From positions 28,667 to 92,666 of the forward strand of contig JAFEAF010000002.1 in the NCBI GenBank assembly GCA_018266555.1: a stretch of DNA of 64,000 bases. Direction: 5' to 3'. The notes under the pieces are model-generated. The model ran no database searches and was not told where the DNA came from. It worked only from the letters and a program-made list of their open reading frames with translations. This document shows, one piece after another, positions 61,179 through 63,579 of this stretch; within the stretch, counting starts at the first letter, position 1; every line of letters starts with the position of its first letter. The stretch comes from Bacteroidota bacterium. Lineage in GTDB: Bacteria; Bacteroidota; Bacteroidia; Chitinophagales; Chitinophagaceae. The translations under genes were made by a program, and so were the position numbers.

Positions 61179-61595
61179 ATGGAAAAATCGGTGGAAGACG
61201 TTTTGAAACGAAATCAGTTAAGCATTACAGAAAGCCGCAAAAAAATACTCGGCCTTTTTTTATCGCATAACGGAGCACTGGCACATGGAGATATCGAAAG
61301 AAATGCCGGTGATAAATTTGACCGGGTGACGGTGTATCGAACACTTCAGACTTTCGTGGAAAAAGGAATCGTTCATACCATACCCACTGCTGATAATTCT
61401 GTCCGGTATGCTTTATGCAAGGACAGTTGTTCGGAGGGCCATCACAGGGATCATCATATTCATTTTGTTTGCAGCAATTGCAGAAATACTTTTTGTCTTG
61501 ATGATATTGCAACTCCGGATATCAGGCTACCCAAAGGATATTCAGCAGAGAAAGTGGAAGTGGTGGTAGAAGGAATTTGCAGCGACTGTAAATAA
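61179..61595 (+). CDS. Fur family transcriptional regulator
   Basis: A 138-residue metal-dependent repressor. The DNA-binding wing-helix has FDRVTVYRTLQTFVEKGIVH (about 47-66); the metal/dimerisation half has HHRDHHIHFVCSNCRNTFCL (about 88-107) with CxxC and ends with EGICSDCK, the second CxxC of the structural zinc site. Fur, Zur and PerR cannot be told apart by sequence alone. It sits behind SCO, so a role in copper, zinc or iron balance is possible. A GGAGG sequence at 61153-61157 is 21 nt from the start and too far to be its ribosome site. Confidence 0.92.
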   Translation: MEKSVEDVLKRNQLSITESRKKILGLFLSHNGALAHGDIERNAGDKFDRVTVYRTLQTFVEKGIVHTIPTADNSVRYALCKDSCSEGHHRDHHIHFVCSNCRNTFCLDDIATPDIRLPKGYSAEKVEVVVEGICSDCK

Positions 61596-61856
61596 ACCGG
61601 TTTTTCATTTTATTTTAAAAAAATCAGAAAAAGTATAGGTGTTAAAACTCTTGCTTTACAAAGCTCAGTAAAATAATGGTTATTGTTTGGAATCCGGTGC
61701 CTGATTGGTTTGGATCTTAAAATGACAAGATTTGGTTACTGATCCGTTGCTGATTGATAATGTTAATAATATAGCTTGGTTAATTTTATTTCAGTCTTTG
61801 TACCCTTCTCACTTTTCCCTGATAACTCGATGAATTTAATTTTAAACATTTGAGTT
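61596..61856. other. Gene-free stretch before the integrase relic
   Basis: AT-rich, no supported gene. TTTGTACCC at about 61797-61805 resembles sequence often found just upstream of Bacteroidota integrase genes and may be the relic's promoter. Confidence 0.4.
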
Positions 61857-62163
61857 ATGGAGCAGGCCAAAAAATCAATGTTATAACTGATTCTCTACCT
61901 GAAAAAATACGAACTGAAAAAGAATGGGAACGCCAAGATTGTGGCATCTACTCCCAATGATGGAACTCCTAAAACTTTGGAAACACAGTTAGAAATTAAT
62001 ATTAGCAATTGGGACTTAAAATACAGAAGAATTGAGAGCAAAAGTGCCACAGCTTTAAGTATTGACAAAAAGTGGGGCAATATATATACTTGTGCATTTC
62101 GACAAGATTTATAAAGATATGCTGAAGCACGGGGGTAATAAACGCTCAAAATTTAAACTATAG
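61857..62163 (+). pseudogene. 5' remnant of a tyrosine recombinase (integrase) gene
   Basis: The frame from ATG 61857 reads MEQAKKSML, a TAA at 61884-61886, then LILYLKKYELKKNGNAKIVA, STPNDGTPKTLETQLEIN, NWDLKYRRIESKSATALSID, and stops at 62112. Shifting by +1 near 62080 continues as HFDKIYKDMLKHG to a TAG at 62161. This matches the Arm-DNA-binding domain and its connector in Bacteroidota site-specific integrases (family recalled from the pattern YLKKxxLKKNGxAPI... and DKIYKDMLKHE). The catalytic domain with Arg-His-Arg-Tyr is missing. It is thus a 5' fragment with one nonsense and one frameshift mutation. Confidence 0.8.
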
Positions 62164-62239
62164 TTTTAGAACATAGGTGTAATGGATAGTGCAATGCATG
62201 ATTTTGAAGATTGGGGATCCTTATAATTCACCATCCCAC

Positions 62240-62360
62240 CTTTTTCTTTTTTTCAACCGGATATAAAGTAAGAACTGCCGAATATAGAGTGGAATAATTC
62301 CCGGGCATTGGTATATTTTAATTTAGTAACAGTTGTCCGGTAACAGGCAACGAAGTTTTA
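62240..62360 (+). repeat. Leader repeat copy A, upstream of the DUF4412-like gene
   Basis: The core 62240-62329 matches 63369-63458 at nearly every base, including CTTTTTTTCAACC, ATATAGAGTGGAATAATTCC and TATATTTTAATTTAGTAA. Weaker similarity (GGTAAC...CGAAGT) continues to about 62360. It ends 77 nt before the gene at 62437. No TAnnTTTG box is inside. Confidence 0.88.
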
Positions 62361-62436
62361 AGCTATATTCTTAATTCATCCTTGTCCTGTATAGAAACTT
62401 TAAAGTATGTATTAAAGAATTAAAAATTAGAGTCAA

Positions 62437-63156
62437 TTGAAAATATTAATGCTTCTTTTTTTAACAGCCTTCGTTTCCTTTCATAAGATAAAAAAAGCAG
62501 ATGTGCCATTTGAAGGTGTTCTCACGTATCAACTCCACTATGTAGATAAATGGTTTGGCACTCAAGGTGAGGTACACACGACTATTTATGAGGCGCCGGG
62601 TAAGTTTAGAATTGAAGCTTACGATACCTCATATGATAAGCCGGACTTGACCATACAAAACCCGCTTTTAATAGATGTGCAAAATGGGACTGAAACACAT
62701 TTGGCAGCCAATATGCAAAGAGCCGTTGTTTATTCCGTAAGCTCAAAAAACAAAATGACTCAAAGCATGGAAAGTAATACACATACTGTATATAATATTG
62801 AGAATATTGGTCAGGATACGGTAAACAATTTTACCTGCAGACACTACAGAATATCCAAGAGCTATGAAAAATTAAAAACCTTGCCTCCTGCCATCTTCGA
62901 CATCTGGATCACCAAAGACCTGGGCAGTGGCAGTATCTGGTATATAGGAGACTATCTCTACCTCTATCCCGGAATGGATTTATTTACAAAATTAGCAAAG
63001 GAAGGTGCTGATGGTGTGGTAGTGAAATGGCAATTGAAAACAAAAGGTGTAACAACCTGTTTACTCACTTCACATTGGCAGACGGATATTCCCAATTCAA
63101 AATTCTTACCCCCTTCAAACTATTCACTATTTCAAATGCCGGGCATGAACCAATAG
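62437..63156 (+). CDS. Exported DUF4412-like protein of unknown function
   Basis: A 239-residue protein with a hydrophobic N-terminus and a beta-rich body resembling DUF4412 / LolA-like lipid-carrier folds: FEGVLTYQLHYVDK, THTVYNIENIGQDTVNNFTC, RHYRISKSYEK and DIWITKDLGSGSIWYIG. The first in-frame codon giving a basic signal peptide is TTG 62437 (MKILMLLFLTAF); the first ATG at 62449 would give MLLFLTAF without a positive charge, so the TTG start is likely. It is preceded by leader repeat A and has a sister leader before the next gene. Confidence 0.68.
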   Translation: MKILMLLFLTAFVSFHKIKKADVPFEGVLTYQLHYVDKWFGTQGEVHTTIYEAPGKFRIEAYDTSYDKPDLTIQNPLLIDVQNGTETHLAANMQRAVVYSVSSKNKMTQSMESNTHTVYNIENIGQDTVNNFTCRHYRISKSYEKLKTLPPAIFDIWITKDLGSGSIWYIGDYLYLYPGMDLFTKLAKEGADGVVVKWQLKTKGVTTCLLTSHWQTDIPNSKFLPPSNYSLFQMPGMNQ

Positions 63157-63368
63157 CAAAGAAATCTTGAGAATGATCACAGACAGAAATTCCTTTAGCA
63201 GCATACAGGATTAGGTATTTAAATCGTGTATGAATATTAATAATTTCTTTGAAAGTTAATACTGCAAAGACTTTGGCGATTATTTTATTAAAAATTAATT
63301 CAAGTTATTCCTTATTGATTCACGACTAAAGCTCCTAATCCGAATAACATATTTATTATCAATCCCCG
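63157..63368. other. Gene-free stretch between the two leader-linked genes
   Basis: AT-rich, no supported gene and no strong terminator hairpin. It runs directly into leader repeat B. Confidence 0.45.
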
Positions 63369-63489
63369 CTTTTTTCTTTTTTTCAACCAGATATAAAGGC
63401 ATCGCTGCCGGATATAGAGTGGAATAATTCCCGGCATTGATATATTTTAATTTAGTAATGGATTTCATCAATCGGTAAACGAAGTATTA
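63369..63489 (+). repeat. Leader repeat copy B, upstream of the 63580 gene
   Basis: Direct repeat of 62240-62360, about 1.13 kb apart, same orientation. The core is almost identical; the first 9 bases after the T-run and the segment after TTTAGTAA differ. It ends 91 nt before the ATG at 63580. Confidence 0.88.
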
Positions 63490-63579
63490 ATTCGAATAGT
63501 TTATTAGCAACCTTCCGGTATTATAACGTAGGCTCTTTTAACCAAACAGGATTAAAGATAATTTTTTAAACAAAAATTT

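Follow-up and report, generated by a model that had tools for sequence, protein, structure and literature searches.

CTnDOT of Bacteroides gives its name to the CTnDOT-like elements considered here; the core sequence of IntDOT is GTANNTTTGC. ICEEa1 of Elizabethkingia anophelis is described as a CTnDOT-like element of 62,849 bp that encodes a tyrosine integrase and a transfer system of the Bacteroidetes type and carries two RteC genes; its insertion site is given as TTTTT, and its inverted repeats are separated by about 5-6 nt (PMC5458099). The CTnDOT-like genomic islands described in Mucilaginibacter have an IntDOT-related recombinase, an RteC-like gene and transfer genes, and their site-selective integration is said to make attL and attR hard to define (PMC6316836). 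The ICERan elements of Riemerella anatipestifer are described as 49-71 kb long, with a tyrosine integrase, RteC and Tra genes (PMC6491836).

We analysed a stretch of 64,000 nucleotides (the window, C22:28667-92666) from a 3.4-Mb draft genome of 32 contigs. Positions 61608-62197 of the window are very probably the left end of a CTnDOT/ICEEa1-like conjugative transposon, made up of attL, the integrase leader and the 5' part of the integrase gene. Only this left part of the element is directly observed.

The integrase was recognized at both the protein and the DNA level. A 75-aa frame at 61887-62111, which starts after the first nonsense codon, matched Arm-DNA-bind_5 (PF17293), the Arm-DNA-binding domain of Bacteroidota tyrosine integrases, at 24.3 bits (E 4.6e-5; curated cut-off 22.6 bits). 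In a translated search (tblastn), the intact 439-aa integrase of the relative G025 matched from Met1 at 61857: residues 1-76 aligned with 61857-62084 in frame 3 (67% identity) and residues 81-113 with 62101-62196 in frame 1 (55% identity), with a combined E of 4e-27. A search for related loci reported 123 integrase loci, 80 of which were kept, and a DNA profile built from 77 of these gave 360 bits for the stretch 61612-62197 (E 4e-111 in a search of 1.2 kb), which excludes chance. The NCBIfam models gave no match to the fragment at 0.01. When the intact G025 integrase was compared with solved structures, an XerC-like recombinase came first and XerA, XerD and other integrases lower, as expected. 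Since the Arm, core-binding and catalytic domains of this integrase occupy residues 13-99, 115-219 and 229-391, the Arm part alone remains in the window; neither the core-binding (PF13102) nor the catalytic (PF00589) domain had a significant match in the window or in the 36 kb beyond it. By homology, 61857-62197 on the forward strand is the 5' quarter of a tyrosine integrase gene (residues 1-113 of the 439-aa relative), with the Arm domain in two frames, and it is best classed as an integrase fragment and not as a functional member of the Arm-DNA-bind_5 integrases. The original prediction, a decayed tyrosine integrase at 61857-62163 with a recognisable Arm-DNA-binding part and no catalytic domain, was right in these features and in its start, while its end fell short: the coding remnant continues to about 62197.

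The fragment contains three nonsense codons and not the single one first proposed, namely TAA at 61884-61886 (codon 10) and two TAG codons downstream of a frameshift. The frameshift lies between 62084 and 62101, where the match to the G025 integrase switches frame. The gene is cut off where the core-binding domain would start, the DNA profile match stopping at 62197. The stops, the frameshift and the truncation together show that the integrase has decayed. Across the 66 codons compared, none of the 80 related loci had a stop; their integrase frames were 416 or 421 codons long in 66 loci and 414-442 in nine others, with three shorter frames (149, 367, and 373 codons) and two loci unreadable from the start. 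The fragment also differed at 23 of the 133 sites that were at least 95% conserved across 48 distinct intact integrase sequences, compared with at most eight (mean 0.67) when each of the 48 was left out in turn, and two for the G025 integrase. As proof of decay this count is weakened by a control, the distant intact integrase L027 (G032), which differed at 27 of the sites. Changes at codon positions 1, 2 and 3 affected 13 of 52, 7 of 61 and 3 of 20 sites in the fragment, against 10 of 52, 8 of 61 and 9 of 20 in L027. Thus, in these small numbers, third positions are not changed in excess in the fragment, which is what an absence of selection would lead one to expect.

Homology to the related loci extended beyond the gene into non-coding DNA, so that element-derived sequence starts about 240 bp upstream of the integrase. 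The window DNA was matched by all 80 kept loci at 71-77% identity. In 76 of them the match began no later than 61643, over 210 bp ahead of the gene, and two of the four loci with a later start begin at the end of their contig. A left-end profile matched 61630-61882 (E 3e-43), and this profile together with the DNA profile marks 61617-61856 on the forward strand as element-derived non-coding DNA ahead of the integrase. When the related left ends were set side by side, they had an abrupt common edge consisting of TTTT, five variable bases and AAAAAGATTAG, which can also be given as TTTT-N5-AAAAAGATTA. Edge positions were scored in 83 loci (the 80 and three from relatives), 78 of which were scorable. 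T was found at each of the positions -9 to -6 in 73-77 of the 78, positions -5 to -2 were variable, and position -1 was A in 62 and T in 15. In the window, the edge reads TTTT-ATTTT-AAAAA at 61608-61621 on the forward strand, 12 bp past the fur stop, and homology to the DNA profile starts at 61612. It fits the 78-locus pattern, that is, integration at a T-rich site with variable coupling bases, and it is the probable left attachment site (attL). The pattern TTTT-N5-AAAA, taken by itself, also occurs at three other starts within 7.8 kb, so it counts as evidence for an attachment site only because it coincides with the edge of homology. The window thus holds the left end, attachment edge and integrase leader expected of a CTnDOT/ICEEa1-like element.

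The other end was characterized in relatives. In G025, a second, broken left end directly follows DNA that proved to be a right end, and a right-end query taken from this genome matched 25 of the 27 genomes searched. Of 30 right-end loci, 24 finish in TAATCTTTTT followed by 3-6 bases and AAAA, a mirror image of the left end; six do not fit. On the assumption that the left and right ends belong to one element, the distances between them were about 61 kb (G025), 62 kb (G060), and 67 kb (G059). Between the ends in G025 lie genes for RteC, a MobA/VirD2-type relaxase, a coupling protein, a topoisomerase, TraG, TraJ, TraM and TraN. The broken left end of G025 (C1:2680459-2681253), which is of the same element family, abuts the right end at a distance of about 61 kb from the intact integrase, and this suggests a tandem insertion. 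For the window's own remnant, a right end and a second attachment site were sought locally with a profile and throughout the draft genome with one right-end sequence (best E 0.04), and neither was found. Nor was there a surviving right end, or an att-like repeat of the kind that had been proposed as a check, near the M3 peptidase gene discussed below.

The left neighbour of the insertion is a gene for a fur-family regulator (PF01475) at 61179-61595 on the forward strand, assigned from Pfam and from the SCO1-fur pair in relatives. Among 29 fur loci covered with up to 1.5 kb of flank, fur was followed by a convergent M3 peptidase gene in 11, with alignment ends 59-320 bp apart. The 18 loci without a peptidase in range are uninformative on the empty site: in 12, SCO1 adjoins fur and the flank covered contains no peptidase gene, and in six fur alone was recognized. 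Among 15 peptidase loci fetched separately, SCO1 lay beside seven, with fur between the two genes in five of these. The arrangement of SCO1 and M3 peptidase with no fur between them was seen in the same-genus genomes G001 and G002 (rated 99-100% complete), in which fur had no match at E 1e-10. This conserved order identifies the predicted M3-family peptidase gene, which lies outside the window and ends at L061:8790 (window-equivalent 69123), as the ancestral right-hand neighbour of fur. In the window's genome, fur and a conserved hairpin ahead of the peptidase gene are about 7.4 kb apart. The original prediction of a former integrative element is borne out by the kind of element identified, its left attachment site and the empty sites in relatives. 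Its placement between fur and a set of leader-linked genes is correct on the fur side; the leader-linked genes are themselves within the inserted stretch. As to other targets and marks of insertion, ARAGORN detected no tRNA in the window, which disfavours a tRNA target, and GC content (0.34-0.41 over the first 12 kb of L061) had no clear step at the remnant that would mark foreign DNA.

The hairpin belongs to a conserved non-coding motif at L061:8646-8750 (window-equivalent 68979-69083, outside the window), located between SCO1/fur and the M3 peptidase gene and consisting of a GC-rich hairpin and GGTTAAGGCTCTGATTAGTAG. The motif was found in a single copy in the window's genome and in 11 of the 13 relatives with that junction (in diverged form in G003), G018 and G009 being the two without it. 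Rfam yielded nothing at the gathering cut-off for three hairpin loci (L061, L033, and L031), and at a relaxed threshold a stretch of one locus scored far below that cut-off. A 106-nt stretch of L031, folded on the strand of the peptidase gene, had a z of -3.4. The motif may represent a small RNA, or else a shared terminator of an unusual type.

The inserted stretch of about 7.4 kb consists of the remnant and five genes, from 62437 to about 68863. The first of these, and the next long forward-strand gene-like frame after fur, encodes a DUF4412 protein (PF14371 by Pfam, 62437-63156). It is followed by genes for a 240-aa protein, an OmpA-like protein, a sensor kinase and a LytTR-type regulator; the kinase, the regulator and the M3 peptidase beyond them are what we take these genes to encode from their sequences. 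The DUF4412 gene and the 240-aa gene are each preceded by a copy of a leader. The first copy (62235-62361, forward strand) is the right-hand neighbour of the remnant, and the second (63365-63490) lies 1130 bp away. The two are 87% identical over 70 nt and then 75% over 61 nt, and no third copy longer than 27 bp was found in the genome.

The presence of these genes inside the same stretch, from fur to the M3 peptidase gene, would suit the end of a smaller non-conjugative element (an integrative mobilizable element or a genomic island) with the five genes as its cargo, provided that it had the same integrase and attachment-site family. Such an element could also account for the content of the stretch, from which the relaxase, Tra genes and RteC of the G025 element are absent: among 102 ORFs of the G025 element region compared with it, the integrase was the sole convincing match, and one further hit (E 0.006, 42 residues) was taken as chance. 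However, relatives of the OmpA-like gene, the kinase and the regulator are clustered at another locus in G001, G002 and G003, with only the C-terminal part of the kinase in three of the clusters. A protein of the 240-aa type joins the cluster in G001 and G003, and the window's own genome also holds OmpA-like, kinase and regulator relatives together on C27. The DUF4412 protein was without a match at 1e-5 across the 58 other genomes and had one weak match in its own. Since relatives of at least three of the five genes occur in clusters at other places in the genus, the five cannot clearly be called cargo; they look like a host-lineage module and may be host-lineage copies. With no right end found either, we regard a smaller element as unlikely. 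We would also entertain, tentatively and as an improbable reading, that a regulatory module of host type (the two leader-linked proteins, the OmpA-like protein, the sensor kinase and the LytTR regulator) was delivered or captured by the element, whose own machinery was subsequently lost, so that a domesticated island remained. If so, a paralogous envelope-sensing cluster was placed at a new site.

The missing right end would also fit a left end that was not inserted here by its integrase but arrived as a fragment in a later recombination event that brought in the five-gene module as well. Between the truncation at 62197 and the leader repeat at 62235 lies a junction of 37 bp (62198-62234) in which no element homology was found, and this is consistent with a composite junction. 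Against such a transfer, the edge of homology falls on an att-type sequence, 12 bp beyond the fur stop and within a T-rich stretch of the kind seen beside intact elements; we consider the transfer quite unlikely.

That the 75-aa frame encodes a functional small DNA-binding protein is highly improbable even with its score above the Pfam cut-off, as a stop severs it from the gene start, it ends at the frameshift, and it was matched in just three of 59 genomes (E 1e-3, its own included), elsewhere in two open frames (440 and 443 codons) and in the broken copy of G025. A phage or plasmid origin was not favoured either: when the frame was run by tblastn against 50,697 phage and 72,556 plasmid records, nothing matched at E 0.01. 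Within its own genome, a search with the Arm-DNA-bind_5 family found four places, the fragment among them at E 2.7e-4. An intact integrase, which the original prediction had suggested looking for nearby, was not found in the same subfamily anywhere in the draft genome: among the other PF17293 and integrase matches, the best full-length one is 32% identical and lies on another contig. Other tyrosine recombinase matches in open frames, 22-38% identical to the query and several of them near contig ends, were seen in this genome (G000) at C2:2713-3936, C3:111230-112033, C11:346610-347428, C15:192-947 and C27:78831-79046.

On the preferred reading, a CTnDOT/ICEEa1-like conjugative transposon would have inserted 12 bp after fur, between fur and the convergent M3-family peptidase gene. 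Through the action of its tyrosine integrase, the element and a T-rich/A-rich target would have been linked across about five variable bases; by analogy with its family, the intact enzyme would have bound to arm sites both in the leader and at the right end, with strand exchange taking place across these bases. A later deletion probably took away the catalytic part together with the transfer genes and the right end, with point mutations accumulating before or after it. As the catalytic domain and the right end are lost, the remnant would be immobile; it presumably codes for nothing useful and most likely does nothing now.

The remnant puts a widespread conjugative-transposon family in the past of this genome and explains the left edge of the inserted stretch in the window. 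The attachment pattern and both ends, derived from dozens of loci, should make similar remnants easier to spot. The remnant itself is routine and of a known kind, and leaves knowledge of these elements unchanged.

Compared with CTnDOT of Bacteroides, the G025 element shares RteC and the TraG, TraJ, TraM and TraN families, transfer proteins that take their names from Bacteroides conjugative transposons. The IntDOT core GTANNTTTGC is unlike the TTTT-N5-AAAAA edge seen here. The Mucilaginibacter islands, as described, resemble the element in their kind of recombinase, RteC-like gene and transfer genes, but have kept their conjugation genes and are linked to metal-resistance genes (PMC6316836). 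The ICERan elements are alike in tyrosine integrase, RteC, Tra genes and a size of 49-71 kb, whereas the direct repeats given for them, of 13 bp and 7 bp, are neither of the TTTT-N5-AAAAA form (PMC6491836). With ICEEa1, the comparison is through its published description, and the window differs in holding a decayed left end only. The intact elements of relatives, about 61-67 kb long, with mirror-image ends and about five variable bases after TTTT, are much like ICEEa1 as described (PMC5458099).
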